Shown one piece after another: positions 5,909 through 21,436 of a stretch of DNA of 64,000 bases (positions are counted from its first letter, which is position 1; each line of letters starts with the position of its first letter). The notes below the pieces were generated by a model, which saw nothing but the letters and a program-made list of their open reading frames with translations, was not told the origin of the DNA and ran no database searches. The position numbers were made by a program, and so were the translations under genes. This stretch comes from Bradyrhizobium cenepequi (GTDB lineage Bacteria > Pseudomonadota > Alphaproteobacteria > Rhizobiales > Xanthobacteraceae), in the NCBI RefSeq assembly GCF_020329485.1, contig NZ_JAGKJI010000004.1:1-64000 (forward strand), read 5' to 3'.

Positions 5909-5916
5909 ATCGCCCC

Positions 5917-6447
5917 CTAGATACTGTAGAAATCGACGACCGTTGGAATGCAGTCATTCATGATGACGATCTTCTTGCGCGCGATCCGATAGCTATCGGC
6001 GTTGCGCACCAGGCGATGCTCGTAGGTTCCGAAGTGCAGATGTTGCCGCCGTGTTCGCGGATCGAACACATGAGTGGTCCAGGACGACCGTGCATCGACA
6101 CTGAGTTCGTCGCGCTCCGTCAGCACGATGTTCGAGATCACATGCAGGGTGCGTGGCAGCGGCAGCGCGGTGATCGATTTACGTGACTGGATACGCCCGA
6201 TCCGCTCGCGCAGTTGCGCCCGGGAGGTGTGATAGATATAGGACACCTGGGTGTCGGGATCGGCCACCAGCTCATATTCATCGAGCCATGATGGCACCCA
6301 ATAGTGGGCATCATCCAGATAGAGATCGGCCCAAGTCTCCCAGGTCTTGTCGTCCAGGTGCTGCGCTTCGACGAACAGCAGCCTTTCCACATCCGCCAAA
6401 CAGTGCGACGCGGTCGACGGACGATCGGGTGATCCACGATCAAGCAT
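5917..6447 (-). CDS. Aromatic-ring-hydroxylating dioxygenase beta subunit
   Basis: 176 residues from the ATG at 6447, which overlaps the 3' end of the alpha-subunit gene. The longer upstream frame (to 6759) only shadows the alpha subunit. Typical features of the small NTF2-like subunit are visible: VERLLFVEAQHLDD, TWADLYLDDAHYWVP, SRAQLRERIGRI, RTLHVISNIVL and YRIARKKIVIMND near the end. The subunit is structural and assembles with alpha into a hexameric oxygenase. Translation is coupled to alpha by the overlap. Confidence 0.93.
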   Translation of the reverse strand: MLDRGSPDRPSTASHCLADVERLLFVEAQHLDDKTWETWADLYLDDAHYWVPSWLDEYELVADPDTQVSYIYHTSRAQLRERIGRIQSRKSITALPLPRTLHVISNIVLTERDELSVDARSSWTTHVFDPRTRRQHLHFGTYEHRLVRNADSYRIARKKIVIMNDCIPTVVDFYSI

Positions 6448-7789
6448 CTGCCGCCTCCATCGCGCCACCCTCCAGCAGCCGCCGCCATTCCCGGTAACCG
6501 GGGTGAAAGTTGGTTTCGCCGCCAAATCCGGACCCGCCGAACGCGTCATCGATCGGCGCGATGCCGAGCTCACGCGCATGATCGCCGCGCGTGCCCTGCC
6601 CCCGGTCGAGGCCCCGCAAATGCCCCAACGTGTGGCCGGCCCGCGCCGCATAGCCGGTCTGGCAGAATTCGTACATGACGTTGTCGTCGGAGGTGGCAAG
6701 ACCGCTGGGATTGAAGAAATCCTCATAGGCCCGAATCCGGAACCTGCGCGCCTCCGCACTCTCTCCGACCGGCGCCAGGCAGTGCGACGTCATCTCGGTC
6801 TTGTCCACTGCCAGCGGCCGCCAGGTGCGCAGCTGCGCCGAGCTGATATCGATGATCTGCAGATTGGGAAAGATCGTCAGGTTGCGCTGGCGCAACATCC
6901 ATTTCAACCTGATGTCGCCGACGCGCGACCTCACCTCGGCGAGCCCGGCCGGATCGGACGCCAGCGCGCGGCCGTAGCGCACCTGCTTCTTGATCGACCA
7001 GTTGACGGCGTGACCGTTCCTGAAATTGAAGCTGCCCTGGCCTTCGACCTCGTCCGCCAGCTCGGTCGTAAATCCGGTGGCATCGCCGGACCTGGCGCGC
7101 TGCGCCAGAATGTCGACGTAAGAGCTGTGTGTGGAGTTGAAGTGATAGTAATCGAGACCGTTCTCGAACTGCAGTTTCCAGTTGGCATCGAAGGTGTAGG
7201 TTATATCGCCCGGAACGAATTCGAGCTGTCCGACCGGGCTCTGGTCGGCGACCAGATCGATGAAGGTGCGGGCATCGTCGAGGTAGTCGTACAGCGACGG
7301 CACATCGGCCGATAGGCTCGCAAAGATCAGGCCGCGATAGCTCTCCAGCCGGGCAACGGGGAGCAGGTTGCGGTCGGCCTGATCGAAGCCCGCCGGGTAC
7401 TGACCATCCGCCTTGTCGGTGACGGCGGTGTTTCGGCCGGCACTGTCATAGGCCCAGCCGTGATAGCGGCAGACATGAAACTTCTGCCGGCCACGCTTGA
7501 ACGGACAGACCATGGTGGCGCGGTGGCGGCAGGTGTTGAGAAAGCAGCCGATCCGGCCCTCGCCGTCGCGCATCAACAGCACCGGCTGGCGGCCGATGAA
7601 GGTGGTGATGTAATCGTGCGGGCGTGGAATCTGGGTCTCAAGCCCAACGAACGACCACGTCGCCTCAAAGACGCGCGTCATCTCCAGCTCGAAGACGTCA
7701 GGGTCAGTGAACGCGTCGCGGGATACGTGAAAAGCCTTGTCAGACGGCCGGTCGTCGATCAGCCGTTCCCGAGGATGGTGGATGTTCAT
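6440..7789 (-). CDS. Aromatic-ring-hydroxylating dioxygenase alpha subunit
   Basis: 449 residues from the ATG at 7789, preceded by GAGAGGAGC; the longer open frame to 7855 lacks such a site. The N-terminal Rieske domain carries C-R-H (NTCRHRATMVCPF) and C-R-Y-H-G-W (VCRYHGWAYDSAG). The catalytic domain carries the mononuclear iron facial triad context NGLDYYHFNSTH, with two His, and a distal Asp in the FFNPSGLATSDD region. The family inserts both oxygen atoms of O2 into aromatic rings, forming cis-diols or hydroxylated products. With the downstream beta and ferredoxin genes it forms a three-component system lacking a local reductase. The substrate is unknown; the Bug binding protein upstream suggests an aromatic acid. 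Confidence 0.93.
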   Translation of the reverse strand: MNIHHPRERLIDDRPSDKAFHVSRDAFTDPDVFELEMTRVFEATWSFVGLETQIPRPHDYITTFIGRQPVLLMRDGEGRIGCFLNTCRHRATMVCPFKRGRQKFHVCRYHGWAYDSAGRNTAVTDKADGQYPAGFDQADRNLLPVARLESYRGLIFASLSADVPSLYDYLDDARTFIDLVADQSPVGQLEFVPGDITYTFDANWKLQFENGLDYYHFNSTHSSYVDILAQRARSGDATGFTTELADEVEGQGSFNFRNGHAVNWSIKKQVRYGRALASDPAGLAEVRSRVGDIRLKWMLRQRNLTIFPNLQIIDISSAQLRTWRPLAVDKTEMTSHCLAPVGESAEARRFRIRAYEDFFNPSGLATSDDNVMYEFCQTGYAARAGHTLGHLRGLDRGQGTRGDHARELGIAPIDDAFGGSGFGGETNFHPGYREWRRLLEGGAMEAADA

Positions 7790-7812
7790 AGGCCGCTCCT
7801 CTCCCGAATCTG

Positions 7813-8787
7813 TCAGTTCAGGTGAATATTGGCGCTGGAGGCGATCGTCCTCCATTTGCCGATTTCGCCGGCGACGAAGCGATCGAATTCCTCCGGCGTC
7901 GAGCCGACCGGCTGCATGCCGAAGGTTTCCGCCTTGGCGGCGAACACCGGTGACTTCACGAACGCGATCAGATCGTCGGACAACCTCTTGACCAACGTAT
8001 CGGGCGTTTTCGCCGTGACCACCAATCCGAACATCGAGTTTGCCTCGTAGCCCGGATAGGTCTCGCCGATGCAGGCGTATTGCGGCGCGTTCGGAATGCG
8101 CGTTGCGTTGGTGACGCCAAGCACCTTGATGGTCTTCTCCTGCACATGCTGTTGCACCGAGTGCCAGACGTCGAACATCAGAGGAACACGGTTGGCCAGC
8201 ACGTCGGTGAGTGCATTGGCACTGCCGTTGTAGGGTACATGCAGCATCTTGACGTCCGCTACCTTCTGCAAAAGCTCCGCCGCCATGTGCGTCGCAGTGG
8301 CGGCGCCCGGTGTGGCATAGGCCAGCGGCTCGGTCTGTGCGCGGGCGGTCCGCACCAAACCTGGAATATCATCGGCCGGGAACGAGGCATTGGCGACGAC
8401 CACCAAGTGCGCTTCGGCCAGCTGGGTGAGCCCGCGCAGATCGCGGAGCGTATCGAACGGCATCTGGTCGCGCACCGCCGGATTGATGACGTGGGCGGTG
8501 ATGACGACCCCGATGGTATGGCCGTCGGGCGCCGATTTGGCCACCAGGTCGGTCCCGATCAAGGTGCCGGCGCCGGGCTTGTTCTCGACAATCACCGGCA
8601 CCGACCATTTCGCCGCCATCGCATCGCTAATGACGCGGGCGACGACATCGGTCGGCCCTCCGGCCGTGAACGGGACGATGATGCGCACGTTGTGCGAGGG
8701 AAACTTGTCCTGCGCCAATGCCGTCGCGGCAGGGCGCATGACGGCAAACGCGGACGTTGCGGCGAGAAACCGCCGGCGGTCGATCAT
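7813..8787 (-). CDS. Bug/TctC-family periplasmic solute-binding protein
   Basis: 324 residues. The N-terminus has a Tat-like motif (RRRFLAA) and a signal ending at ALAQ. The mature protein starts with the Bug hallmark VRIIVPFTAGGPTDVVARVI. It continues with VENKPGAGTLIGTDLVAKSAPDGHT and the family C-terminus (SSTPEEFDRFVAGEIGKW-like). Bug proteins bind carboxylates in the periplasm and usually work with TctAB permeases, none of which is encoded here (orphan). It is 23 bp upstream of the dioxygenase alpha gene on the same strand, so it may capture the oxygenase substrate. Confidence 0.92.
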   Translation of the reverse strand: MIDRRRFLAATSAFAVMRPAATALAQDKFPSHNVRIIVPFTAGGPTDVVARVISDAMAAKWSVPVIVENKPGAGTLIGTDLVAKSAPDGHTIGVVITAHVINPAVRDQMPFDTLRDLRGLTQLAEAHLVVVANASFPADDIPGLVRTARAQTEPLAYATPGAATATHMAAELLQKVADVKMLHVPYNGSANALTDVLANRVPLMFDVWHSVQQHVQEKTIKVLGVTNATRIPNAPQYACIGETYPGYEANSMFGLVVTAKTPDTLVKRLSDDLIAFVKSPVFAAKAETFGMQPVGSTPEEFDRFVAGEIGKWRTIASSANIHLN

Positions 8788-8883
8788 GTTGTCCTCCCTC
8801 GGACCCTTCGTTGGCCTTGCAGCCTTTTTGATGCTTGCACGACGCGTGCGGGGAAACGCACTTTGCCGGACGCCCGATCGACT

Positions 8884-8903
8884 ATAGTTGTTTTTACACC
8901 TAT
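8884..8903. promoter_or_regulatory. Candidate MarR operator
   Basis: In the divergent gap between the Bug gene (start 8787) and the marR-like gene (start 8976) lies an inverted repeat ATAG-N-TGT-N4-ACA-N-CTAT, 20 bp long. MarR dimers bind such interrupted palindromes, and its place between divergent genes fits control of both. This is inferred from symmetry only. Confidence 0.45.
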
Positions 8904-8975
8904 TGCAATGACGGATACGGCGCCAAACCTGGGCGATCCGTGCTTAATGACGGCCGGATTCGCAAAGGGATCGGC

Positions 8976-9545
8976 ATGGCGCAAACCAAGAAGACGGAGA
9001 TCGCGGGCACCCCGCAGGGGCTGCGCGCCTCGGCATCGCAGGCCATCGACTTCGAACGCTACGTTCCGACAGTGGTGTCGCGGCTGTCGGTAAAGCTGCG
9101 GGCATCGGCCAAGATCTTTTTCCAGGAAAGCTACGGCATCACCCTGCTCGACTGGCGCATCATTTCATTTCTGGCCGCGGAGGGGCCGTCCAGCGCGTAC
9201 GACATCTGGACGCTTGGAAGCCTGGAAAAGGCCGCCGTGAGCCGGGCACTGAGAGGTCTCGTCGATCGCGGCATCATCGTTGTCCGCAACGATCGCAAAA
9301 GTGCCCGCCGTCGCTCCGTTGTGTCTCTGACAAAGGCCGGACGCAGACTTCATGATCGGACGTTTGATGAAATCATTGTTCGGCATCAGCGCCTGGTCGG
9401 CGACCTGACTCGAGATCAGATCGAGACGTTCATCTGGACGGCGCAGCACCTTGAAGGACGGATCGCCTTAATGGAACGAGAGATCGGCCCGCCATTATCG
9501 GACTACGATCCGACCAAGATCGTTAATTCTTTAGATCAGACGTAG
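8976..9545 (+). CDS. MarR-family transcriptional regulator
   Basis: 189 residues from the ATG at 8976, with AAAGGGA 5 nt upstream; the frame is open further up but without such a site. It has the winged-helix core of MarR: GITLLDWRIISFLAAEGPSSAYDI, the recognition helix LEKAAVSRALRGLVDRGIIVV and the wing region RRSVVSLTKAGRRLHD. It is divergent to the Bug/dioxygenase genes and so the likely regulator of that operon, with ligand probably an aromatic acid. The N-terminal 30 residues are an unusual polar extension. Confidence 0.9.
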   Translation: MAQTKKTEIAGTPQGLRASASQAIDFERYVPTVVSRLSVKLRASAKIFFQESYGITLLDWRIISFLAAEGPSSAYDIWTLGSLEKAAVSRALRGLVDRGIIVVRNDRKSARRRSVVSLTKAGRRLHDRTFDEIIVRHQRLVGDLTRDQIETFIWTAQHLEGRIALMEREIGPPLSDYDPTKIVNSLDQT

Positions 9546-9661: not shown

Positions 9662-10348
9662 ATGAACATGAGACGCGAACGATCGAGCAATCAAGGCACT
9701 CCCGCCCTCAAAAGGCGGCCCGCTCCCGGTGCCCGGGCGCGGACCGACGAACAGAAAAAAGATGTCAGGGAAAACCTTATTGCCGTCGGACGGCACTTGT
9801 TCGCTGTTGAGGATCCTTCGACAGTCTCTCTGCGCAAGATCGCCGTCAAAACGGGTTATTCGCCTGGGACAATCTACAAGTACTTCAGAGACCAGCACGA
9901 GCTATTCATCGCCATACGTGAGCAGGACATGTCTCGCGTCGTGGACAATCTGGAGAAGATGGCCGAACGGGTTGCTGATCCAAAAGAGCGTTTGAGAGGG
10001 GTCTTTGTCGCGGCCGTCCGGCACTGGCTAAAATATCCAGAGGAATTTAGAGTTCTGTTCTCAATTCGCCCGGAACAATCCAGCAAGCCCGATCGCCAAC
10101 CGTTCGGCAAGTCGGCGGTTGTGCTGCGTTCCTACTCGCTATATCGGCGGCTTGTCGACGATCTGTTCGCTACCTATCCCGTCCCACCATGTGCTCCACG
10201 GTTGGCAACCGACACCTTAATCGCCGCAACACATGGTATCATCGCTTTTACCTTGCATACACACACGCTCGAATGGTCGAACCCCATCAGGATGTCGGAG
10301 CAAGTCCTAGATGCGCTGCTGGTGACTTGGTCTAAATCCGATACGTGA
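9662..10348 (+). CDS. TetR/AcrR-family transcriptional regulator (paralog 1)
   Basis: 228 residues. The N-terminal helix-turn-helix is VSLRKIAVKTGYSPGTIYKYFRDQ, preceded by a basic Arg-rich tail. The C-terminal ligand domain is aligned over its whole length with the TetR protein encoded at 20729-21436 (shared motifs: GYSPGTIY-YF, AIRE-DM, SYSLY-R-V-DLFATY, a C-terminal EWSNP/DWSNP). The two paralogs bracket the LDI-like operon. This one is convergent with the operon's last gene, 21 bp apart. The start at 9662 has no strong ribosome site, so an internal start is possible. Confidence 0.9.
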   Translation: MNMRRERSSNQGTPALKRRPAPGARARTDEQKKDVRENLIAVGRHLFAVEDPSTVSLRKIAVKTGYSPGTIYKYFRDQHELFIAIREQDMSRVVDNLEKMAERVADPKERLRGVFVAAVRHWLKYPEEFRVLFSIRPEQSSKPDRQPFGKSAVVLRSYSLYRRLVDDLFATYPVPPCAPRLATDTLIAATHGIIAFTLHTHTLEWSNPIRMSEQVLDALLVTWSKSDT

Positions 10349-10369: not shown

Positions 10370-10897
10370 TTAGACTAACCGCCTGATGATTTGGTCGACC
10401 AGCTCGTCCTCTCCGATCGCATCGGTAAAGTGCGCGACATAGCGGCCATCAGGACCGATCAGATAGGTGAACGCCGTATGAGGCATCTGATATCCGGTCG
10501 CATCATCCGGATCAGTAGTGCGCTTGACGAAGACCTTGTATAGCGCTTTGACCTGCTCGATATTCTCGCGTGAGCCGCTCAAGCCAATGAAATGCGGATA
10601 ATTTTCTTCCAGAAACGCCTTCATGACTTCGGGCGTGTCGCGATCGGGATCGATGGTGACGTAGAGTGGCTGGAGGCGCGAGGACAACGGCCCGAGCCGA
10701 TCGATGACCTTCGAAAGACGCGCCAGCGCACCCGGGCAGACAACGCGGCAATGAGTGAAGCCGAAAAACAGCAACATGAATTGTTCACGATAGCTGCAAT
10801 CGGATACGGAACGACCGTGATGATCGATCAGCTCGAAAGAGCCGCCGAGCCGAACTGCCTTTTTGCCGGATGTGCCGCCACAGAAGTCAGACATCAT
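10370..10897 (-). CDS. SCO1/SenC-like thioredoxin-fold protein lacking a membrane anchor
   Basis: 175 residues. It has the SCO fold core: LLFFGFTHCRVVCPGAL with the C-x3-C motif, ITIDPDRDTPEVMKAFL, and a downstream His in MPHTAFTYLIGPDG. C-x3-C plus His is the copper-binding/redox triad of SCO proteins. Canonical SCO proteins are anchored in the membrane facing the periplasm. Here the N-terminus (MMSDFCGGTSGKK) has no signal peptide or membrane helix, so it should be cytosolic. Its start overlaps the stop of the LDI-like gene by 11 bp, implying coupled expression. A role in keeping the partner enzyme's thiols in the right redox state is a guess; copper handling is the alternative. Confidence 0.82.
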   Translation of the reverse strand: MMSDFCGGTSGKKAVRLGGSFELIDHHGRSVSDCSYREQFMLLFFGFTHCRVVCPGALARLSKVIDRLGPLSSRLQPLYVTIDPDRDTPEVMKAFLEENYPHFIGLSGSRENIEQVKALYKVFVKRTTDPDDATGYQMPHTAFTYLIGPDGRYVAHFTDAIGEDELVDQIIRRLV

Positions 10898-12503
10898 CGA
10901 ACTCTATAACGAGCATTGTCGGCCTCTCCATTCGCAGGTCCACCGCAATAATCTGGTCGCATGCGAAAACGTGCACCGCGCCCGCGTTCGACAAGGCCCC
11001 GTCGCGACAGGCAGCAATCGCCACGCCATCCACGAAAAGCGCCCAGTCTGCCTCAACCCGTACAGGTCCTATTTCCAAGCGAACCTGCAAGGAGCGGCCG
11101 TCACGCGGCTGGAGCGTCAGAACCAAGAGCTTGGCTTTCTCGTCGTACACGGCACGCGCTACATCTACTCCACTCGTGGTTCGCTGCAACGCTGGGCTCG
11201 CGAAATGCTCGGCGCGCCAAGGCTTATTGTACATCGCCCACAATCCGTCGGGTACGTTGAGCCGGGAGTAGGCCAGCATCGCGTTGCCGGTTAGCCGGTC
11301 CATCCGGATGAGGTTGCCTCCCTGATCGTAGGCCTGATCGTTCCGCGGATAGTAGAGCCCGCCTTCGCTCCATGTCGGCGACATATAGCGGTCGGCATGC
11401 GCCAGCATGCGACCGAGATCGGTATCGCCCATTTCTGAGAGCAACATCGCGACATACCCGAAATCCGGCATTGGCCAAGGATAGGCGCGATCTTCGATGC
11501 CGTCGATCGAGAGACGGTTGACGAGTGCCTCGCGCACCCGCGGCACAACGGAATTCGGGTGGAGCGAGACTAGACCATCGTCGCCGTATTTGAGGACTCC
11601 ATGCAACTGATCGCGATAAATGCCGTGCACAAAATCGCGGTTCCAGGTGTTCATTATCGCGCCGCCCCACGCCGTCCAGCCGACGCTTTTCGGTGGCACG
11701 AAATCATCCTGCTCGACGCGCCACCAACCATGAAACCAGCCCTCGGCCGACAACATGCCTTTCTTGTCCCAAGCGGTACGGTAGCTTCGCGTCGCTTCTT
11801 CGGCCACCGATGTACCTTTTCGCAGATCGGCAAAGCGGAAGCCGAGCATCGGAAATTGATTGCAGACGATGAAGACGCAGTTCGGCTCGCAGGCGACGCC
11901 AAGCCAGCCGTTCTCCACCATCTGCCAGTAGATCACTTCGTTCAGCGAAGTGCGGGTGTATTCGTATCTTTCCGGGCCCATACCCCAAAAGATCGGATTG
12001 TGCAGAAATGTCAGAGCGCCCGGTTGGTCATGAACGTCGTCATTGAAGAGCATGGCGTACATGCCCACCATCGCTGACAGATGCCCGCTGTACATGATGT
12101 TTTCGCGCACCACCGGATCGGTCCACCCCTTGCGCAGTTCTTTGATGCCCGGGTTGACGTAGGGACCGGACTGGCTGGTGTCTTTCCAGTAGCTCCAGAC
12201 CTCGCGTCTGAGCATCTTGCGGATCAGGTTGCCGAAGGTTTCGCGGAATACGGCCGGCGCGGCCGGCAAGCGATGGTAATGCGCGAGGCCTAGAGCGTAG
12301 GCCATTTGCGCAAGTTGGTAACGGTAGGAATCGAGCCACTCTTGCCCCGGATCCGGGATACCCATCTTCGACCATTCGCCGTCCGGCTGCGCGGCAAGGT
12401 TTTCGATATGGCGTAGATGCCCGATCTGGATGGAATCCAGAATGGGAAACCTCGAGACGTCGACTGCTGCGGGAGTGGTGTCCCCGAGCTCGGATACGGC
12501 CAT
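10887..12503 (-). CDS. Linalool dehydratase/isomerase-like enzyme
   Basis: 538 residues; AAAGGAGG lies 7 nt before the ATG. The central part matches the linalool dehydratase/isomerase fold of Castellaniella defragrans. ENIMYSGHLSAMVGMY corresponds to the segment carrying its catalytic His (here H141). GVACEPNCVFIVCNQF corresponds to the segment carrying its two catalytic cysteines with identical 9-residue spacing (here C205 and C214). The Asp of the reference enzyme appears as Glu (E34), and the neighbouring catalytic Tyr is not found. Unlike the reference it has no signal peptide and has about 140 extra C-terminal residues (beta-rich, from about 440). The fold is an alpha/alpha barrel acting on allylic or tertiary alcohols. 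The substrate here is unknown. It sits last but one in a LIV-transporter/oxidoreductase operon. Confidence 0.82.
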   Translation of the reverse strand: MAVSELGDTTPAAVDVSRFPILDSIQIGHLRHIENLAAQPDGEWSKMGIPDPGQEWLDSYRYQLAQMAYALGLAHYHRLPAAPAVFRETFGNLIRKMLRREVWSYWKDTSQSGPYVNPGIKELRKGWTDPVVRENIMYSGHLSAMVGMYAMLFNDDVHDQPGALTFLHNPIFWGMGPERYEYTRTSLNEVIYWQMVENGWLGVACEPNCVFIVCNQFPMLGFRFADLRKGTSVAEEATRSYRTAWDKKGMLSAEGWFHGWWRVEQDDFVPPKSVGWTAWGGAIMNTWNRDFVHGIYRDQLHGVLKYGDDGLVSLHPNSVVPRVREALVNRLSIDGIEDRAYPWPMPDFGYVAMLLSEMGDTDLGRMLAHADRYMSPTWSEGGLYYPRNDQAYDQGGNLIRMDRLTGNAMLAYSRLNVPDGLWAMYNKPWRAEHFASPALQRTTSGVDVARAVYDEKAKLLVLTLQPRDGRSLQVRLEIGPVRVEADWALFVDGVAIAACRDGALSNAGAVHVFACDQIIAVDLRMERPTMLVIEFDDV

Positions 12504-12539: not shown

Positions 12540-13295
12540 TCACATGCCGAGGTAGGCTCGCTTGACGTCTTCGCTCTGCAGGAGCTCGGGGCCCGTGCCT
12601 GCCTTGACGATCCGGCCAGTCTCCATCACGTAGCCGAAATCGGCGATCGCGAGAGCCGCGCGGGCATTCTGCTCGACCAACAGGATCGTGATGCCTTGCT
12701 GCCGTAACCGATCCACCACGCGCAGGATTTCCGCTGCCAGAAGCGGTGCGAGACCGAGCGAGGGCTCGTCGAGCAGCAGTAGCTTTGGTTCGCCCATCAG
12801 TGCACGCGCGATAGCCAACATCTGCTGCTGACCGCCGGATAGCGTTCCGGCCGAAAGCTTCCGCTTCTCTTTCAGCACGGGAAACAGAACATAAGCCTGA
12901 TCGATGCGCTCGTTCAAATCGGCGCTCTGGCGACGATACGCGCCAAGTCTGATGTTGTCCTCGACCGACATCGGGCCGAATACCTGCCGTCCCTCGGGGG
13001 CCTGGCAGATCCCAAGCGCGACCCGTCTGTGGGGAGCCAAACGAGAGATGTCCGTGCCGTCGAAACCGATCGTGCCTTCGCTCTGGCGATGAACTCCCGA
13101 CAGCACGCGCAAGAGCGTGGTCTTGCCGGCGCCGTTCGCGCCTACCAGCGCGACCAGTTGTCCCTTGGCGACGGCAAAATCAATTCCGTGCAGTGCTTCG
13201 ATGGGACCGTAGCGCACCTTGAGGCCTTTCACCTCCAGTAGCGCCCTCGCGTCGGGCGCGAGCGGCATAGGGGCAGCTTGTTCGGCCAACCTCAT
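12540..13295 (-). CDS. LIV-type ABC transporter ATP-binding protein (LivF-like)
   Basis: 251 residues. Walker [13 protein letters not shown], signature LSGGQQQMLAIARAL, Walker B LLLLDEPSLGL and the LivF-specific start LLEVKGLKVRYGPIEALHGIDF are all present. It energises uptake with the LivG/LivM/LivH/LivK-like products encoded just upstream. The ATG overlaps the preceding stop by 4 bp. In this operon the imported compound is probably the substrate of the LDI-like and ThDP enzymes rather than an amino acid. Confidence 0.93.
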   Translation of the reverse strand: MRLAEQAAPMPLAPDARALLEVKGLKVRYGPIEALHGIDFAVAKGQLVALVGANGAGKTTLLRVLSGVHRQSEGTIGFDGTDISRLAPHRRVALGICQAPEGRQVFGPMSVEDNIRLGAYRRQSADLNERIDQAYVLFPVLKEKRKLSAGTLSGGQQQMLAIARALMGEPKLLLLDEPSLGLAPLLAAEILRVVDRLRQQGITILLVEQNARAALAIADFGYVMETGRIVKAGTGPELLQSEDVKRAYLGM

Positions 13296-14053
13296 GCGGC
13301 GACCCCTAGATAGGCGGCGATCACCTGTGGGTCGGCACGGACGACCTCGGGCGTTCCTTCCGCAAGCTTCTTACCGTAGTCGAGTACAAGGATGCGTGTT
13401 GAGACCTGCATCACAAGTTTCATATCGTGCTCGACGAGCAGGACGGTCACGCCGGCCTTGGCAATGTGCTCGATGAGCTTACGGATTTCGTCGGTCTCGC
13501 TGTGATTCAGTCCAGCCGCGGGTTCGTCGAGCAGCAGGATCTTCGGTTTCGCCGCTAGGGCGCGTGCGATCTCGAGGCGTTTCAGAGCTCCGTAGGGCAT
13601 CTGGGATGCCTGCGCGGTCCTGTATTGCGACAGACCGACATAGGCCATCAACGCCGCGGCCTCTTCCCGCAATGCGGCGTCTGCCTTGCGAATATGCGGC
13701 AGGTGCAGCAGCCCCGCGAAAAATCCCGAATCTACCCGGGTTTGGCCACCCACCATGACGTTGGAGATGGCATCCATATTCATGCAGACTTGGATGTTCT
13801 GAAACGTCCGGCTGAGGCCCAGACGCGCCAACCGGTCGGGCGAAAATCCGGTGACTGTTTCGTCCATCATGGTGATTACGCCGGCGCTCGGTGCGTAGAT
13901 GCCGGATAACAAGTTTATCAGCGTGGTCTTGCCGGCGCCGTTCGGGCCGATGATGGCGTGAATCGATCCTGCCTCGACCGTGAACGAAAGGTCGTCGACC
14001 GCCGCTACGCCCCCGAAGTGCTTCGACAAGCGGCTTACTTCCAGCGCGCTCAT
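13292..14053 (-). CDS. LIV-type ABC transporter ATP-binding protein (LivG-like)
   Basis: 253 residues. It has Walker A GPNGAGKTTLINLLSG, the signature region MPYGALKRLEIARALA (a variant of LSGGQ usual for LivG), Walker B ILLLDEPAAGLNHSE and the switch His in LLVEHDMKLVM. The length is standard. It overlaps both neighbours by 4 bp (ATGA), so it is part of a tightly coupled transporter operon. Confidence 0.93.
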   Translation of the reverse strand: MSALEVSRLSKHFGGVAAVDDLSFTVEAGSIHAIIGPNGAGKTTLINLLSGIYAPSAGVITMMDETVTGFSPDRLARLGLSRTFQNIQVCMNMDAISNVMVGGQTRVDSGFFAGLLHLPHIRKADAALREEAAALMAYVGLSQYRTAQASQMPYGALKRLEIARALAAKPKILLLDEPAAGLNHSETDEIRKLIEHIAKAGVTVLLVEHDMKLVMQVSTRILVLDYGKKLAEGTPEVVRADPQVIAAYLGVAA

Positions 14054-14988
14054 GACCGTAGTCTCGTCAGTCGATTGGACAACGTCGGTACCAGGCCGTT
14101 TGGCATGAAGATCATGGTTACGATCAGAATGATGCCGAATACGATGGTTTCGCCGTCCTCGAATGTCGAGAGCACTTGAGGCAAGAGGGTGAGCAATGCG
14201 GCTCCGACCAGAGAGCCCGGAATGGACGCCATGCCTCCAACGATCACCATCGTCATCAAGATGATGGAGCGCACGAAGCCCGCGGTGTCGGGCGTGGCAA
14301 ATTCGAGATAATGCGCCTCCAAGCTACCCATGACGCTCGCGACGATCGCCGAGAGTACGAATACCTTCACTTTAACGCCGGCGACATCGACGCCTGCAAT
14401 GCGGGCGGCGACCTCGGATCCGTGGATGGCCTGTAGCGCCCGGCCCGCCGGCGAGTCGACCAGGTTGCTCGCCGTCCAGACCGCGGCTAGCAGCAGAATC
14501 GACAGCAGCGCATACCAGTTGCGGTCCCCGCTCAACGTCCAAGACCCGATTGTGAAAGCGGGCACGGACATGCCGTCCGAGCCGCCGGTGTAGTGCATCT
14601 CGTTGTTGAGGGCGATTGCAATGATGATGCCCATACCGAGCGTGGCCATCGCCAGATGGTGACCTTTCAGGGTCAGTATCGGTCGCGCGATCACGAACGC
14701 CAGAAGTCCGGTGCCGGCTGCGCCCGCGACGAGTGCGACGAGCGGCGGCCAGTTGAAGTGCGTCGTCAGGACCGCCGAAGCGTAGGTCCCGAGCCCAATG
14801 AAGCCCGCGTGTCCGAGGCTGATTTGACCGGTGTAGCCGAATAGCAGGTTGAGTCCGATCACCACGACCGCGTTGATGAGGACACGAACGGCGAGATCGT
14901 ACGCGAAAGCATTGGGCGACAGCAGAGGAAATGCCGCCAGACCGATGGCCAGCAGCACCAGACCGAGGGTTCGGGGTGCGATCGTCAT
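14050..14988 (-). CDS. LIV-type ABC transporter permease (LivM-like)
   Basis: 312 residues and strongly hydrophobic, with about ten membrane segments. Family motifs are LNLLFGYTGQISLGHAGFIGLGTY near residue 45, the cytoplasmic loop DSPAGRALQAIHGSEVAARIAGVDV, and the conserved IVGGMASIPGSLVGAALLTLLP. It pairs with the LivH-like permease encoded upstream, overlapping it by 4 bp. Confidence 0.93.
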   Translation of the reverse strand: MTIAPRTLGLVLLAIGLAAFPLLSPNAFAYDLAVRVLINAVVVIGLNLLFGYTGQISLGHAGFIGLGTYASAVLTTHFNWPPLVALVAGAAGTGLLAFVIARPILTLKGHHLAMATLGMGIIIAIALNNEMHYTGGSDGMSVPAFTIGSWTLSGDRNWYALLSILLLAAVWTASNLVDSPAGRALQAIHGSEVAARIAGVDVAGVKVKVFVLSAIVASVMGSLEAHYLEFATPDTAGFVRSIILMTMVIVGGMASIPGSLVGAALLTLLPQVLSTFEDGETIVFGIILIVTMIFMPNGLVPTLSNRLTRLRS

Positions 14989-15860
14989 ACTCGGTGCGAT
15001 GACTTGGCGCCGAACAGGCCGTGCGGAGCTACCACGAACAGAAGGATGATCAGGATGAAGGCGACCGCGTCCTTGTAGGCCGATGAAACATAGGCCGCCG
15101 TCATGGCTTCGATGATCCCCAGGACCAGTCCGCCGATCACGGCGCCTAGGGCACTACCCAGCCCGCCGAGCGCTGCGGCAACAAAGCCCTTAAGGCCAAG
15201 CATGGTACCAGCGTCGTAGCTCGTGAAGGTGATCGGTGCCAGCAGCACGCCGCCGATGGCTCCGAGCGCCGCCGATAATGCGAAAGAAAACGTCAGGATA
15301 CCCATGGTGTTGATGCCGACCAGTTGGGCAGCGAGACGATTATGCGAGGTCGCGACCAGCGCCTTGCCGTGCATGGTGGCATTGAAATACCAGAACAGCA
15401 CGAGCACGATGACGAGCGCCAGCCCCATGATCCAGATCGCTTGGGGGACCAACGCCGCGCCGAGAATGTGCAGGGGGCGCTCGTCCGAAAGACCCGGTAG
15501 CGCATGATTTCCCTTGCCGAGACTGATCTGAACCGCGCCGCGGATGACTTGGCCGGCACCGAGAGTAATGATGATCAATGAGGTCATCGACGTGGTCTTG
15601 GCCGGCTCGACGGCGAACTTAGCCATGGTCACGCCGACCAGGGTCGTGAAGGCGATGGCCAGTGCGAGAGCGAGCAGCAATGGCACGCCCGCGGCGACGA
15701 GCGCCGAGGCGGTCATCGCACCCAGCATGATGAATTCGCCCTGGGCGAAGTTGATCATGCCGCTCGCGCTGTAGACCAGCGTATAGCCGAGCGCGGCCAA
15801 CGCGTAGGTTGCACCTACCGTAAGTCCTGCAAACAGGAACTGTAGGAATTGCGACAGCAT
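14985..15860 (-). CDS. LIV-type ABC transporter permease (LivH-like)
   Basis: 291 residues, hydrophobic. Typical LivH features are GLTVGATYALAALGYTLVYSASG, MINFAQGEF, the NRLAAQLVGIN loop and FVAAALGGLGSALGAVIGGL. The ATG at 15860 follows AGAGGAAACG. It is the first permease after the binding-protein gene in the operon. Confidence 0.93.
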   Translation of the reverse strand: MLSQFLQFLFAGLTVGATYALAALGYTLVYSASGMINFAQGEFIMLGAMTASALVAAGVPLLLALALAIAFTTLVGVTMAKFAVEPAKTTSMTSLIIITLGAGQVIRGAVQISLGKGNHALPGLSDERPLHILGAALVPQAIWIMGLALVIVLVLFWYFNATMHGKALVATSHNRLAAQLVGINTMGILTFSFALSAALGAIGGVLLAPITFTSYDAGTMLGLKGFVAAALGGLGSALGAVIGGLVLGIIEAMTAAYVSSAYKDAVAFILIILLFVVAPHGLFGAKSSHRV

Positions 15861-15909
15861 CGTTTCCTCTCACTGCGCGTCCGGTTGACCCGAGCGTCAC
15901 ACGCTGCCC

Positions 15910-17061
15910 CTATTGGAGCGGAACGAACTTGTTGTTCTTCACCACGTACATCCGCAACGACTCGATTGCCAATCCCTGATGATCTGTCGGTGACATCGTA
16001 AACACGCCGTTGAGCCCTGGGAGATTCTTCGTCTCCTCGATCGCTTGCCGCATCTTGGCTTTATCCGTGGTCCCTGCGCGACGGATCGCATCCACCGCGA
16101 TGACCGCGGCGTCATAGGAGTTGCCGGCGAACGGGGAAGCCGTCTCATGGTACGCATCCCTGTAGCTGTTGTAGAAGTCGTCGATCACCTTTTTCTGCAG
16201 ATCGTTCGCTGGAACCATATCTGGGACGACGAAGATCGCGGTCGGCGTACGAACCCCTTCGGAGGCCGCGCCCGTCAATTTGAGGAACTCCTGATTGACG
16301 ACCGCGTGGGGCAGAAATAGCGGAAGCTTGATGTCGAGCCGGGCATAGTTTTTGACGGCCATCGAAGGGCTGGTCCCGGCTCCACAAAAGATCAGAATCG
16401 CCTGCACGCCGGGCGCATCCTTGATCGTTGTCAATTGCGGCGTGACGTCGGTGTCTTTTGGACCGTACTTCTCGTCGGCAACGATCGAGATACCGTACTC
16501 CGGCGCCGCCTCCATGATCTCCTTGCGCCCCGACTGGCCGAAACCGGCAGTTTCCGATAACAGGCCTATCCTGCTGTATCCCTGTTGCTTCATGTCCTGC
16601 AGGATTCGCTTCGCCACTTGGCGATCGGTATGCGGCGTCTTGAATACCCATTTCTTCACGGGAACGACGATCGCCAGGCCGCCGCCGACCGAAATGTAGG
16701 GTATCTCGGCCCGCTCCGCCAACGGTATCATCGCCATCGCCGATGGTGTGACCGTTCCCCCGATGATCAGATCGACGTGGTCCGATTCGATCAACCGCTT
16801 GGTCATGGTGCTTGCGCGTGCCGGTTCCGACGCATCGTCGTACGATACCAGTTCGATCCTCCGTCCGAGCACACCGCCGGCGTCATTGATCTTCCTGATG
16901 TAGAGTTCGACGGCTTTTTGCTCGGGATCGCCGATGAATCCGACCACGCCGGTGGTCGATAGCAGCAAGCCGATCTTGATCGGGTCTTCCGCTGCGGACG
17001 CCGGAAGCGGACTTGCGGCAATGACAGCTGCCACCAACAAGCTCTTCGCACCTAGATTCAT
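15910..17061 (-). CDS. LIV-type periplasmic substrate-binding protein (LivK-like)
   Basis: 383 residues from the ATG at 17061, which has GGGAG 7 nt upstream; a TTG two codons earlier is less likely. A signal peptide ends at PASAAE. The mature part is a type I periplasmic binding protein: PIKIGLLLSTTGVVGFIGDPEQ, the NDAGGVLGRRIELVSYDD segment usual for the family, and DLIIGGTVTPSAMAMIPLAE. It delivers a ligand to the LivHM permeases encoded downstream. The ligand is not deducible from the sequence; catabolic neighbours point to a hydroxylated or aromatic compound. Confidence 0.93.
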   Translation of the reverse strand: MNLGAKSLLVAAVIAASPLPASAAEDPIKIGLLLSTTGVVGFIGDPEQKAVELYIRKINDAGGVLGRRIELVSYDDASEPARASTMTKRLIESDHVDLIIGGTVTPSAMAMIPLAERAEIPYISVGGGLAIVVPVKKWVFKTPHTDRQVAKRILQDMKQQGYSRIGLLSETAGFGQSGRKEIMEAAPEYGISIVADEKYGPKDTDVTPQLTTIKDAPGVQAILIFCGAGTSPSMAVKNYARLDIKLPLFLPHAVVNQEFLKLTGAASEGVRTPTAIFVVPDMVPANDLQKKVIDDFYNSYRDAYHETASPFAGNSYDAAVIAVDAIRRAGTTDKAKMRQAIEETKNLPGLNGVFTMSPTDHQGLAIESLRMYVVKNNKFVPLQ

Positions 17062-17100
17062 TTTCAATCTCCCTAGACAACCGACCGGTCTGCGCCGGCT

Positions 17101-18048
17101 TCAGTTTGCGATGGCAAAGTGTATTTTGATGCGGCCGGGATCGGCATCGCCCGCGACAAGCTCCGAGAAGATCCGCGCGCATTGTTCAAACGGAAACTTC
17201 GCGATCCAGCGCGTGTCTAGGCTGACGGCAAGATCGATCGATTCGCGGAACTCGTCGGGCGTGTATGCGAAAGATCCGCGAATGGTTCGCTCGCCGGCGA
17301 CGACCGGACCTCCTGCGACGGCGAATTCGGGTGCATGCAGGCCGACGAGCACAGCCGTGCCGCCGACCCGCACGTTTTCGACGGCATTGCGTCGCGTTGC
17401 CACCGCGCCCACCGTATCGAACACGACCTCGTAGGTTGCGTTTGCCGTTTCCGCGACGCAGTCGGCGCCGCATGCCAGTGCCAGCATCCTGCGCTCGGGT
17501 GTGATGTCGGTTACCGTTATATTGCCGATGCCATTTGCCTTGAGGACATGGAGGAGCGACATGCCGATTGGCCCGGCCCCGAGGATGGCTACGTTCTCGC
17601 TGGGCATCGGCGACAGCCGCCACGCATGAAGGGCGGTTGCGATCGGTTCGACCATCGCCGCGCGCGTCAGATCGAGATTGTTTGCCTCCGAAAGATTGCG
17701 CTTCGGCACCGAGACGCGCTCGGCGAACGCGCCGGGCCTGTGAACCCCGAGAACTTGCCGTTTTTCACACAGATGCGGGTGCCCTTCGCAGCAGGCGCGA
17801 CACTCGCCACAGGACAGGATGGGATTGGCGACCACGAGCGCGCCGTCCCGTTCACGGCGGCCCACGAATTCATGGCCTATCGTCATGCCTACGGGGATCG
17901 GCGGCCGACCATTTCTCACGGCACCGAGATCGGTCCCGCAAATGCCGGCCGCGAGCACAGTTACGATGTCCTCGCCGTCCGAAGTCTGAGGCGCGGACAC
18001 GTCGGTCCACCGCACCGCCCGATCGCCCGCGTAGACAAGCGCTTTCAT
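17101..18048 (-). CDS. Zinc-dependent medium-chain alcohol dehydrogenase
   Basis: 315 residues, slightly short for the family. Catalytic zinc ligands are visible in AAGICGTDLGAV (Cys) and TIGHEFVGRR (His-Glu). The structural zinc loop is CGECRACCEGHPHLC. The nucleotide-binding motif is ILGAGPIGMSLL. It oxidises a secondary alcohol with NAD(P). It overlaps the SDR gene by 4 bp, so two alcohol dehydrogenases of different folds are co-translated in the same pathway. Confidence 0.9.
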   Translation of the reverse strand: MKALVYAGDRAVRWTDVSAPQTSDGEDIVTVLAAGICGTDLGAVRNGRPPIPVGMTIGHEFVGRRERDGALVVANPILSCGECRACCEGHPHLCEKRQVLGVHRPGAFAERVSVPKRNLSEANNLDLTRAAMVEPIATALHAWRLSPMPSENVAILGAGPIGMSLLHVLKANGIGNITVTDITPERRMLALACGADCVAETANATYEVVFDTVGAVATRRNAVENVRVGGTAVLVGLHAPEFAVAGGPVVAGERTIRGSFAYTPDEFRESIDLAVSLDTRWIAKFPFEQCARIFSELVAGDADPGRIKIHFAIAN

Positions 18049-18851
18049 GCCGCACCACGCGGTGCGACGGGTGCGGTACGCGACGCTAGGCTCGGATAGC
18101 GCCGGTTCAGCGCGCCTCCGTCCACGTAAATCGTGTCGCCGGTGATATAGCTTGCTTCGTCGGACACCAGAAACGCGACCAACGCGGCGACTTCTTCCGG
18201 CCGACCTGGCCGGCTAAGCAGAATGTTGTCGATGAATTCGGCGCGAGCATTGGGCATCGCCAGCAGCCGCTTGACCATTGGCGTCTCGGTCAGCCCAGGA
18301 CCGACGCCAACGACGCGAATATTATGTGCGGCGAACTCCATTGCTGCGACCCGCGTCAGCATCGCAGCCCCGGCCTTGGAAGCGCAATAGGCTGAAAGTC
18401 CCTCCCCCGGCTGCTCCGCGTTTGTCGAGATGAAATTGACGATCACCCCGCCGCGCTCCTTCATCCGCAGCGCCTGATGCTTGCAGCAGAGGAACAGCCC
18501 GGCGAGATTGATATTTTGGACGCGCTGCCACTGCTCGAGCGATTGATCGAGCAGCGGCACACTGATGCCGATCCCGGCAGCGTTGACACCGATGTCGGTC
18601 TTGCCGAAGAACTTCTCCACCGACTCGATTGCCTGGATGATATCCGGCTCGTTGACGACGTCGGCGGCAAGAGCGAGCGAAGGCCCCGGCAGCGTTGCAA
18701 CTGTAGCCTCAGCAGCGTGGAGATCGCGATCGACGACGGCGATCCGCGCGCCATCGCGGGATAAACGCTGCGCGACCGCCTGGCCCATGCCAGACCCTCC
18801 GCCAACCACGATTGCGACTCTGCCGTCGAGACTGCGCTTTAACTCTGGCAC
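18045..18851 (-). CDS. SDR-family NAD(P)-dependent oxidoreductase
   Basis: 268 residues from the GTG at 18851, which has GGAGG at a 7-nt spacing. A GTG at 18857 forming a GTGA overlap with the upstream stop is the alternative. The much longer open frame is a shadow of the ThDP gene. Features: cofactor motif VGGGSGMGQAVA, D-V near ALAADVV, NAAGIG, catalytic Ser in FIST, Y-x3-K in YCASKAGAA, and the GPGLTETPM and GDTIYVDGG ends of classical SDRs. It probably reduces or oxidises a keto/hydroxy group in the same pathway as its neighbours. Confidence 0.9.
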   Translation of the reverse strand: MPELKRSLDGRVAIVVGGGSGMGQAVAQRLSRDGARIAVVDRDLHAAEATVATLPGPSLALAADVVNEPDIIQAIESVEKFFGKTDIGVNAAGIGISVPLLDQSLEQWQRVQNINLAGLFLCCKHQALRMKERGGVIVNFISTNAEQPGEGLSAYCASKAGAAMLTRVAAMEFAAHNIRVVGVGPGLTETPMVKRLLAMPNARAEFIDNILLSRPGRPEEVAALVAFLVSDEASYITGDTIYVDGGALNRRYPSLASRTAPVAPRGAA

Positions 18852-18853
18852 GC

Positions 18854-20572
18854 TCACACCTCCAGCACGTCGGCGTAGGGCACCCGAGCCTTGCCCTCCG
18901 GGCTGCGCAAGCTCTCCGCCGCCAACCCCATGAAGCGCTGAGTAATCGGATTCATCACCGGCTTGGTCATGACGTTGACGCAGGCCGGACGGTTCGATTC
19001 TAGGGCACGCTTTAGCGCGGGTCCGAGTTCCTCGAAGGACGCGACGTATTCCGCGTGGGCGCCGAACCCGGAGGCTGCGACGTCGTAACGCGTCGCGGCG
19101 AGATCGGAGGCGACGCGCTTGCCGGGGCCGTAGATCAGGTCCTGACCATGGGCCGACATGCCCCATTGTTGGTCGTTGTTGACGACCACGACCACTGGAA
19201 GATTGTGGCGAACCATCGTATCGAATTCGGCGAAGTTGAAGCCGATGGCGCCGTCGCCGGAGAAGCAGATTACGCGCTTGTCTGGATGCGCGGTCTGCGC
19301 CCCGACAGCGAGCGGCAGGCCCTCACCCATGATCCCCATATAGCCGTGACCGAGCCAGCGATCCGGCTTGAGGCTTGCGGCGAAGCCATCGAACCATGCC
19401 GGTGTTTCGCCGCCGTCAAGCACCAAGATCGCGTCGGCCGGCACCGACGACGCCAGCGTCGAAGCAACCAGCCCCGGCGTCAGTCCATCGGCCGCGCTTG
19501 GCGCCGGTGGTTTCGGCGCATCGTCGCCGCGAAGACCGCTGACCCAGGCGCTGCGATCCGACCAAGGACCATTTCCCGCCTGTGCGATCAATGCCGCCAG
19601 CATTTCGCGGCAATCGGACACCACGCCGAGTTCAACATCGCGGACCCGGCCGATTTCCTCGGCAGATATATCGACCTGAATGATCTTCGCGTCCCTCGGG
19701 ATGACCGACTTCCGCCGTCCCCCGGTATAGAGCCCGAGCCGCGCACCGAGCAGCAACACCACGTCCGGCGCGCCCGCACCGCGGCCGACGGCTGAGCCCA
19801 GCGCACCGAACCCGCGCGCCCATAGCGGATGATCGGTCGGCAGCGAGCCGCGCGATTTGTTGTTGGTCATCACGGGAATACCGGACAGTTCGGCAAAGCG
19901 GTTCAGAAGGTCGGAGCCGGCGGAATAAGCCACTCCGCCTCCAGCAAGAATGACCGGGCGCTGCGCTCCGCGGAGAAGTTCGAGCGCAGCCGTAACAGCC
20001 GAAGGCGCCGGCGCTGGCGGCAACACGCGCATCGCGCTGGGATAGACGATATCGCCCTCTTCGAGGAGCGCGTAGAGCACGTCGCTTGGAAGATCGAGGT
20101 AGACCGGGCCGGGTCGCCCCTCTCTGGCAATGTGAAACGCTCGTCCGACGAGATCCGGTAGACGCTCGACATGGCTCACGCGATGTGCCCATTTGGTAAT
20201 GCCGCCCATCACCGAGAGCTGGTCATACCCGCTATTGACTGGCAATGCATCGTAGTCCCGCAGCGGTGGCCCGCCGCCGATGAATACGCTGCCGATACAA
20301 TCGGCATAGGCATTTGCGATCGCCGTAACCACGTTGGTGACCCCGCCACCGGCTGTGACTATGGCGACGCCGACTTTGCCGGTCGTGCGCGCGTAGCCGG
20401 TCGCGGCGATGCCCGCGGCCTGCTCGTGCCGGTGATCGATGATACGAAATCCTTCGGCGACGGCCGCCTGATAGATGCAGTCAAGATGACCGCCGTGTAG
20501 CGTGAAGATCGTGTCGACGCCAAACCGCTTCAGCGTCGCGACCAGCGCCTGGCCACCGTCGATGCGAGCCAC
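18854..20572 (-). CDS. ThDP-dependent lyase of the benzaldehyde lyase type
   Basis: 572 residues from GTG 20572, preceded by GGGAGG at 6 nt; the ATG-initiated extension to 20800 runs through the promoter and is rejected. It follows Pseudomonas benzaldehyde lyase closely at the N-terminus: LHGGHLDCIYQ (H26, H29), DHRHEQAAG with the catalytic Glu at the same number (E50), VTAGGGVTN and ITKWAHRV. The ThDP/Mg motif is GDGAIGFNFAEFDTMVRHN...NND near residues 445-475. The pocket Gln113 of the reference is Asn113 here. This family cleaves or forms acyloins (alpha-hydroxyketones). A generic acetolactate-synthase-like role is the alternative. It is the first gene of the operon. Confidence 0.83.
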   Translation of the reverse strand: MARIDGGQALVATLKRFGVDTIFTLHGGHLDCIYQAAVAEGFRIIDHRHEQAAGIAATGYARTTGKVGVAIVTAGGGVTNVVTAIANAYADCIGSVFIGGGPPLRDYDALPVNSGYDQLSVMGGITKWAHRVSHVERLPDLVGRAFHIAREGRPGPVYLDLPSDVLYALLEEGDIVYPSAMRVLPPAPAPSAVTAALELLRGAQRPVILAGGGVAYSAGSDLLNRFAELSGIPVMTNNKSRGSLPTDHPLWARGFGALGSAVGRGAGAPDVVLLLGARLGLYTGGRRKSVIPRDAKIIQVDISAEEIGRVRDVELGVVSDCREMLAALIAQAGNGPWSDRSAWVSGLRGDDAPKPPAPSAADGLTPGLVASTLASSVPADAILVLDGGETPAWFDGFAASLKPDRWLGHGYMGIMGEGLPLAVGAQTAHPDKRVICFSGDGAIGFNFAEFDTMVRHNLPVVVVVNNDQQWGMSAHGQDLIYGPGKRVASDLAATRYDVAASGFGAHAEYVASFEELGPALKRALESNRPACVNVMTKPVMNPITQRFMGLAAESLRSPEGKARVPYADVLEV

Positions 20573-20627
20573 AATAAGCCTCCCTGCCGCTTGTTGGACG
20601 ATCCGAACCGTCGTATTCGACCGTATG

Positions 20628-20639
20628 TGAACGCGTTCA
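20628..20639. promoter_or_regulatory. TetR-type operator, copy 1 (perfect palindrome)
   Basis: TGAACGCGTTCA is a perfect 12-bp palindrome between the divergent ThDP-lyase gene (start 20572) and tetR gene (start 20729). A near copy lies 30 bp away, about three helical turns. The position fits repression of both directions. Confidence 0.65.
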
Positions 20640-20657
20640 TTAATGCAAGCACTTTGA

Positions 20658-20669
20658 TGAACGCGTTTA
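20658..20669. promoter_or_regulatory. TetR-type operator, copy 2 (one mismatch)
   Basis: TGAACGCGTTTA repeats the first operator with one change, in the same helical phase (centre-to-centre 30 bp). Paired sites of this kind suit two TetR dimers, possibly one from each paralog. Confidence 0.55.
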
Positions 20670-20728
20670 TTTATCGCAGAAGATGTGTGAATTACACTGA
20701 GCGTCGCGTTGGATAGGCAGGAGATTGA

Positions 20729-21436
20729 ATGGCAAAGAGAGCGGCTCAGGTGCTTGCGCGAAAAGAGAAAACTGCCCGACCGGCGCGTGCCCGGGCGCAT
20801 TCCGTGCAGGCGAAAAGCGAAGTGCGAGCGGCCTTCATTGCGGCCGGACGACGACTGCTGGCCGCAAAAGGTTCAAAGCAAGCCTCGTTGCGTGGCATTG
20901 CCGCCGCTGCGGGATATTCCCCGGGTACGATCTACCAGTACTTTGGTGATCATCGCGCCCTGCTGCTCGCCATTCGAGAAGAGGACATGTTGACCGCAAT
21001 TATTGCTTTCGAGAAAATTGCCGAGAGCGAGCGTGATCCCGAGCAGCGCGTGCTTCATGTGTTCCTGGGCGTCGCGCAATACTGGATTGGTAATTTCGAC
21101 CACTATCAAACGCTATTCTCGCTGTCGCCTTATAAGCTCGCGGTCAAGGATGACGCCGGCATTCCCTTCGGCCGGTCTCCAATTGTCACCCGCTCCTACT
21201 CGCTCTACGATCGGATCGTCCGCGATCTGTTCGCGACCTACGAGCGTGAACCGGTAGACGCCAAACTTGCCGTCGATAGCCTGATCGCGGCCGTGCACGG
21301 CATGGTCTCATTTCCCATGTACACGCGCACGATGGACTGGAGCAATCCGAGGACGATGATCGAGGTGGTGATTAGATCTATGTTGTCCTCGTGGAGGACA
21401 CTCGGCAGTTCAAACGCTGAGACACCAATCGCGTGA
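20729..21436 (+). CDS. TetR/AcrR-family transcriptional regulator (paralog 2)
   Basis: 235 residues, preceded by GGCAGGAG. The basic N-terminal tail is followed by the helix-turn-helix ASLRGIAAAAGYSPGTIYQYFGDH. The ligand-binding half resembles the regulator at 9662-10348 throughout. It is divergent from the operon that begins with the ThDP lyase, and the intergenic gap holds two palindromic operators, so autoregulation and operon repression are likely. Confidence 0.92.
   Translation: MAKRAAQVLARKEKTARPARARAHSVQAKSEVRAAFIAAGRRLLAAKGSKQASLRGIAAAAGYSPGTIYQYFGDHRALLLAIREEDMLTAIIAFEKIAESERDPEQRVLHVFLGVAQYWIGNFDHYQTLFSLSPYKLAVKDDAGIPFGRSPIVTRSYSLYDRIVRDLFATYEREPVDAKLAVDSLIAAVHGMVSFPMYTRTMDWSNPRTMIEVVIRSMLSSWRTLGSSNAETPIA

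Follow-up and report, generated by a model that had tools for sequence, protein, structure and literature searches.

To our knowledge, work on SCO proteins has dealt almost exclusively with anchored, extracytoplasmic forms that assist respiration, and the debate on whether SCO proteins act as copper carriers or as thiol oxidoreductases is an old one. The Sco1/SenC/PrrC copper chaperones of cytochrome oxidase are characterized as membrane- or lipid-anchored (PMC9145763). Another setting is provided by the mtoX - SCO1/senC - mauG operon, where SCO1/senC neighbors mtoX, which encodes a methanethiol oxidase that depends on Cu (PMC5739008).

The second family of interest here, PF18566, includes linalool dehydratase-isomerase (LDI) of Castellaniella defragrans, a protein with an (alpha/alpha)6 barrel. 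According to published work, LDI needs Cys170/179 in the reduced state and a reductant (DTT) in vitro for full activity, has a structural cysteine pair (Cys48/Cys101), and is not active if E. coli produces it, stripped of its signal peptide, in the cytosol (PMC6600392). There is interest in LDI for alkene production (PMC6013536). Linalool isomerase (LIS) of Thauera linaloolentis has a cytosolic catalytic domain and requires a reductant, and its gene is described as isolated from its neighbors (PMC4791888). In the open-licence PMC literature we found no description of PF18566 or of a pairing of Ldi with SCO; the parts of the system reported below are known in themselves, and it is their coupling, their compartment and a third cysteine that are new to us.

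In this study, a window of 64,000 nucleotides (the whole stretch of DNA that was analyzed, from Bradyrhizobium cenepequi) was found to carry two overlapping genes on the minus strand. The first (10887..12503) encodes an Ldi-family (PF18566) enzyme of 538 aa, with an (alpha/alpha)6 barrel and a C-terminal beta-rich part and without a signal peptide or membrane domain. The second (10370..10897), the final gene of a same-strand run, encodes a SCO1/SenC-family protein of 175 aa without a signal peptide or anchor. An earlier note on this DNA had placed the SCO reading frame exactly, strand included, and its 11-bp overlap, within which Ldi terminates and SCO begins (10887..10897, minus strand), agrees with the ORF coordinates; the overlap shrinks to 8 bp if the second ATG of SCO starts translation, and most relatives have one of 4 to 14 bp. 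We tentatively propose, at close to an even chance, that the pair is a conserved unit in which the SCO protein serves as the dedicated thiol-disulfide partner of a three-cysteine site in the Ldi enzyme. Pairing in both directions, missing anchors, common clades and a third enzyme cysteine that tracks the SCO are observed directly.

The smaller protein is a member of the SCO1/SenC domain family and falls outside the anchored factors of oxidase assembly that PMC9145763 describes. It matched PF02630 (SCO1-SenC) with 142.5 bits over all 134 model positions (gathering cut-off 22.8), and its AlphaFold model (mean pLDDT 89.0) resembled Cu-bound Arabidopsis Sco1 (Z 25.4) and human SCO1 (Z 25.3), with non-SCO chains at 15.3 or below. 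The thioredoxin-type SCO fold with a C-x3-C motif and a distal histidine fits the family and is the same as in copper chaperones of the Sco1/SenC/PrrC type, e.g., B. japonicum ScoI. Cys50 (10748..10750) and Cys54 (10736..10738), the first and second cysteines of C-x3-C, and His140 (10478..10480; all minus strand), which occupies the metal-ligand position of SCO proteins, are present in all 38 SCOs of the subtype. The loop between the cysteines differs: the window protein has CRVVCP where the canonical sequence is CPDxCP. Pro51 and Asp52 were found in 31/31 of the unlinked SCOs compared, which share a C-P-D-x-C-P loop, whereas position 51 is Arg or Lys in 36 of 38 subtype members and Asp52 occurs in none of the 38 motifs listed. 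Three further subtype SCOs have Lys, Gln and Gly at position 51 (Arg or Lys in one of three) and Pro-Asp in none. Other markers of the subtype include Tyr79 and Phe123 (38/38), His156 (36/38) and Asp159 (37/38). The last two form an HxxD motif near the C-terminus (window 10428-10432 region) and are not the usual residues in other SCOs; a docking or ligand feature is possible. Relative to Sco1/SenC/PrrC as described there, the subtype lacks both the anchor and CPDxC, and has a linked enzyme in place of an oxidase.

A missed upstream start with a signal peptide was considered for the window SCO and is ruled out by an in-frame stop: just two codons lie between this stop and the first ATG, with no in-frame start upstream, so no signal peptide has been overlooked. 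No hydrophobic N-terminus was detected in any of 38 distinct subtype SCOs, in keeping with the description of the protein as unanchored in the earlier note. Hydrophobic N-terminal stretches were likewise absent from the 31 linked Ldi proteins checked, the window protein included, whereas such a region was seen in all nine unlinked Ldi checked (of 22). The latter resemble the N-termini published for linalool isomerase. Because neither subtype SCOs nor linked Ldi have hydrophobic N-termini, both partners are most likely cytosolic, as judged from their sequences.

The assignment of the larger protein rests on a PF18566 match of 413.5 bits and on a model (pTM 0.84) that matched LDI structures with Z of about 24, the next entries being at 13. 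Structural comparison with LDI gave Z 24.1 over 324 aligned residues, with an rmsd of 3.4 and approximately 20% identity. Anchoring, cysteines and architecture set the window enzyme, a PF18566 member, apart from both LDI and linalool isomerase. In contrast to LDI it has no signal peptide, a third active-site cysteine, an added C-terminal beta-rich part and a linked SCO. LIS and the membrane-type Ldi found here are members of the same family; LIS differs from the window enzyme in having N-terminal membrane helices, and the membrane-type Ldi in having hydrophobic N-termini and no nearby SCO. The beta-rich part, residues ~436-535 (window ~10899-11198), lies outside the structural match to LDI. 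A weak Foldseek match of the model to a GH127 glycosidase was also recorded (4qjy, E 1.3e-3); GH127 glycosidases have a cysteine-zinc site.

The active-site pair C-x8-C with its Glu, Pro and Asn is present in the window enzyme as Cys205 (11889..11891) and Cys214 (11862..11864) within CEPNCVFIVCN. Cys205 aligns with Cys170/171 and Cys214 with Cys179/180 of the LDI active site, which agrees with their earlier designation as catalytic cysteines. Cys209 (11877..11879; all minus strand), which lies between them, had been overlooked. Since no cysteine precedes Cys205, the enzyme has no counterpart of the LDI structural pair Cys48/Cys101. The motif of linked enzymes is CEPNCxFxxCN, with CEPFC in one lineage. 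Wherever the motif could be read, the middle cysteine was present in SCO-linked Ldi (83/83 locus records, among which genomes are repeated) and missing from unlinked Ldi (0/22); these counts exclude Ldi with no readable motif, i.e., the weak matches L130, L131 and L145 and fragments in L032 and L090. Cys205, Cys209 and Cys214 are the sole cysteines conserved in all 53 linked rows (the column that comes next has 30/53), and the third-cysteine position is Trp in 17 of 21 unlinked rows. A further motif, H75-x-H77 (window ~12273-12281), is invariant in SCO-linked rows, present in the Rhodococcus erythropolis plasmid protein described below (L025) and rare in unlinked Ldi. Helix 184-199 of the enzyme is a candidate surface for docking of the SCO: its residues Tyr192, Trp193, Val196 and Gly199 do not vary among linked Ldi and differ in L025, the exported relative that lacks an SCO on its plasmid.

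The association was examined in both directions. For the SCO subtype, a profile (A1) of 24 SCOs with a linked Ldi was run on four genome samples, in which the subtype scored at least 213 bits and the other SCOs listed 185 or less. Matches of at least 213 bits were obtained in 7/265 genomes of the genus, 19/249 Pseudonocardiaceae, 2/398 genomes of the phylum (one being the genome of the window itself) and 3/293 genomes of the order of Streptomyces genome G265. These represent 30 distinct genomes, and an Ldi sequence was adjacent in all 30, whole or nearly so in 27 and as a remnant in three. Thirteen of the 30 genomes contribute a row to the profile, which makes the test partly circular; the 17 that do not all have an adjacent Ldi sequence as well (15 whole or nearly so, two remnants), although in two of these 15 (G1051 and G1434) the fetched stretch stops ~33 to 39 residues into the enzyme and does not cover the start of Ldi. 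In a plasmid collection, SCO matches were obtained in 383 records, and nine records had a match covering 80% or more of the Ldi protein; eight of these nine are also the eight top-ranked SCO records (169 to 193 bits; the ninth-ranked at 135). Seven of the eight plasmids belong to the Agrobacterium vitis/Allorhizobium ampelinum group and one to Variovorax. By match positions, SCO is directly downstream of Ldi on the A. vitis/ampelinum plasmids, two of which were read in detail.

For the enzyme, three surveys were carried out (265 + 249 + 249 = 763 genomes). Soluble Ldi scored at least 353.9 bits against PF18566, one truncated copy apart, and other Ldi at most 291.4. The genus (265 genomes) yielded Ldi in eight genomes, seven soluble and one membrane-type. 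In Pseudonocardiaceae (249 genomes), the family of G267 with the Pseudonocardia locus L014, Ldi was found in 29 genomes, 18 with a soluble form (one truncated) and 11 with membrane-type or weak matches only. The family of G266 (Aurantiacibacter; 249 genomes) gave 13, of which three were soluble. A subtype SCO adjoins the soluble Ldi in 28/28 genomes. Within the genus it occurs in exactly the seven of 265 genomes with soluble Ldi, a match with a probability of 6e-14 under random placement when relatedness is ignored. The absence of SCO was assessed genome-wide in the Pseudonocardiaceae set, where 10 of the 11 genomes without soluble Ldi had no SCO match at E 1e-15 and the eleventh is a remnant case (G319, below); absence of the subtype was assessed in G148, the membrane-type case of the genus, whose genome has no subtype SCO. 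None of the 22 unlinked Ldi examined has an SCO within ~1.5 kb of the domain (L028 was examined further). These proteins (L010, L028, L120-L128, L132, L136-L144 and L146) form a second Ldi group without SCO and without the third cysteine.

The earlier note had asked whether this SCO subtype co-occurs with LDI-like genes or is routinely found without them. The counts in both directions, 28/28 soluble-Ldi genomes with SCO and 30/30 SCO genomes with an adjacent Ldi sequence (three of them remnants), show co-occurrence and no routine occurrence of the SCO by itself. With no orphan SCO subtype and no signal-peptide start, and with 30/30 adjacency and no anchors, the suggested role of the SCO as a partner dedicated to the LDI-like enzyme is well supported by genomics.

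One enzyme with three cysteines was found without an SCO. The ninth plasmid record with Ldi, R. erythropolis pRSLBG43 (L025), encodes a three-cysteine Ldi and no SCO in a search that covered the plasmid alone. By eye, the N-terminus of this Ldi (L025:13359-15059) looks like a twin-arginine lipoprotein signal, with a cysteine after the signal. The plasmid also encodes Rieske dioxygenase, AMP-binding and P450 genes.

On the SCO side, the apparent orphan of G319 (L081/L147) lies beside an Ldi remnant (L147:9240-9608), recognized as such because the SCO start is overlapped by a frame whose last 61 residues are an Ldi C-terminus (67% identity to L021). The Ldi match begins only at residue 267 in G1317 (L171) and at residue 197 in G277 (L024). 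In these three actinobacterial genomes (L147, L171 and L024) the enzyme is eroded and the SCO frame intact, and the incomplete partner is always the enzyme. The SCO may thus have some independent value, or the losses may be recent. The first option would suit an SCO that works by itself in the pathway, in a peroxidase-like or redox-sensing role, and is merely co-transcribed with the enzyme. The fold is also similar to that of peroxiredoxin-type proteins, at lower Z (~14 to 15). We consider an independent role improbable, however: the third cysteine of the enzyme tracks the SCO, and the pair is kept where nothing else is common with the window operon (23 of 35 loci compared).

In phylogenetic analyses the subtype SCOs formed one clade (SH-aLRT 99) relative to 31 other SCOs, mostly of the genus; 36 rows of this clade come from stretches that also contain Ldi, and the others are the L019 genome's SCO and L081, which is linked to a remnant. 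Linked Ldi also formed one clade (support 100), which holds the exported R. erythropolis protein near its base. Both trees were built by a quick method and gave long-branch warnings, and the placement of L025 at the base of linked Ldi is not firm. Distances of Ldi and SCO were correlated (r 0.77, 35 pairs; none of 10,000 permutations was as high), a correlation that is partly due to the common descent of the genomes.

These data bear on the conventional role of SCO. The Pfam family and fold are those of oxidase SCOs, and an ordinary cytochrome-oxidase assembly factor could in principle have come to lie here by chance. We regard this as very improbable indeed. None of the 38 subtype members has an anchor; the subtype is in its own clade (support 99) among the SCOs sampled; in 8 of 13 relatives' genomes searched the only SCO is the one adjoining Ldi; and at E 1e-15 no SCO was matched in 226 of the 249 Pseudonocardiaceae. 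The oxidase-assembly role is thus already contradicted by location and phylogeny. The absence of an oxidase gene, on which the earlier note had drawn, is correct as far as it goes, no COX1-family gene being present on the 267-kb contig of the window. It carries little weight, as contig C1, which holds the ordinary SCO of the same genome, has no COX1 gene either and the absence therefore does not discriminate. Oxidase context was dropped as evidence.

In the mechanism that we favor, the soluble Ldi enzyme, with Cys205, Cys209 and Cys214, and the soluble SCO made from the overlapping frame would form one functional unit in which the SCO acts on the cysteine cluster of the enzyme. The dithiol Cys50/Cys54 would exchange with a disulfide or other oxidized form of Cys205/Cys209/Cys214, and the enzyme would thereby stay in, or be switched to, the reduced and active form that characterized family members require. 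A dithiol partner of the three-cysteine site, in our view the most likely mechanism, accounts for the genomic facts with the fewest new assumptions. Several points stand against a redox role. Disulfides in the cytosol should already be open to reduction by general thioredoxin systems, and LIS, with its cytosolic catalytic domain and isolated gene, indicates that cytosolic reduction is manageable without a linked SCO. His140 is kept in 38/38 subtype members and is not required by a pure thiol role. The three-cysteine Ldi of pRSLBG43 has no SCO on its plasmid, and three actinobacterial genomes combine an intact SCO frame with an eroded enzyme. The pair may explain how a cytosolic relative of LDI stays active. 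It also ties a soluble SCO to one small enzyme that is separable from respiration and has a marker residue, Cys209, so that the copper-or-thiol question becomes testable on a purified pair.

Retention of the complete CxxxC and His set in 38/38 subtype SCOs would suit a metallochaperone, one that supplies the three-cysteine Ldi site with copper or some other thiophilic metal and so gives a metalloenzyme unlike the cofactor-free LDI. We consider metal delivery doubtful, though a serious possibility and the main rival of the redox reading. SCO proteins elsewhere carry copper, the third cysteine of the enzyme tracks the SCO, and the clade-marking H75-x-H77 is invariant in linked rows. MerR-type regulators, some of which sense metals, were identified among neighboring genes (3/89 ORFs). 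On the other hand, both partners are apparently cytosolic, and bacteria rarely use copper enzymes in the cytosol; the 25 of 126 neighbor families listed include none for copper transporters or chaperones; the SCO cysteines no longer enclose the canonical Pro-Asp; and His75/His77 may, from their helix position, lie at the end of the barrel opposite the cysteines, a placement that does not support a single metal site formed by both. A precedent is offered by SCO1/senC beside the Cu-dependent mtoX (PMC5739008). Like the pair studied here, that operon has an SCO gene that its context assigns to a non-oxidase enzyme; the mtoX enzyme is a periplasmic SBP56 protein with His-ligated Cu, while the enzyme here is a PF18566 protein and apparently cytosolic. 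The stronger claim, that the linked Ldi clade is a new metalloenzyme family binding a cytoplasmic metal on Cys205/Cys209/Cys214, with the SCO as the first cytosolic, enzyme-dedicated loader of the SCO type, appears unlikely. If it were true, a fold described as cofactor-free would become that of a metal-dependent dehydratase or isomerase.

The run of minus-strand genes that ends with SCO begins with a Zn-type alcohol dehydrogenase, a short-chain dehydrogenase and a thiamine-diphosphate enzyme (17101..20800), followed by the genes of a branched-chain-type ABC importer upstream of Ldi (12540..17067, in the order livF, G, M, H, K). Pfam identified the first ATPase and the binding protein, and the other three importer genes were named by homology and order relative to an annotated Variovorax plasmid. 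The substrate of the enzyme is probably a tertiary or allylic alcohol processed by this surrounding catabolic operon. The pair occurs with an ABC importer and dehydrogenases in the window, B. tropiciagri (L011), G098 (L153) and Variovorax (L027), and SCO and Ldi are the only genes in common with the window operon in 23/35 loci compared. Searches with 89 of 138 neighbor ORFs (crude script calls from 18 loci) gave mixed catabolic families, TetR being the commonest (5/89); no substrate could be named from these 89 ORFs and the 25 of 126 families listed.

In the window, a TetR-family regulator gene (9662..10348, plus strand) is tail to tail with SCO, and a TetR homolog adjoins the pair in L011 and L153 as well. 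A divergent TetR gene faces the pair on both A. vitis-type plasmids that were read, and a gap of ~440 bases comes after the pair. Some pairs are rearranged: SCO comes first in G296 (L149), one binding-protein gene lies in between in L019, and on the Variovorax plasmid SCO is 10 kb from Ldi in the same run of same-strand genes. In G352, a second, very divergent Ldi-like ORF was detected on the same strand downstream of SCO (L151:7073-8473). In the window, separate Rieske-type dioxygenase genes, a TctC-type binding protein and a MarR regulator (5576-9545) adjoin the TetR gene and the Ldi-SCO run.
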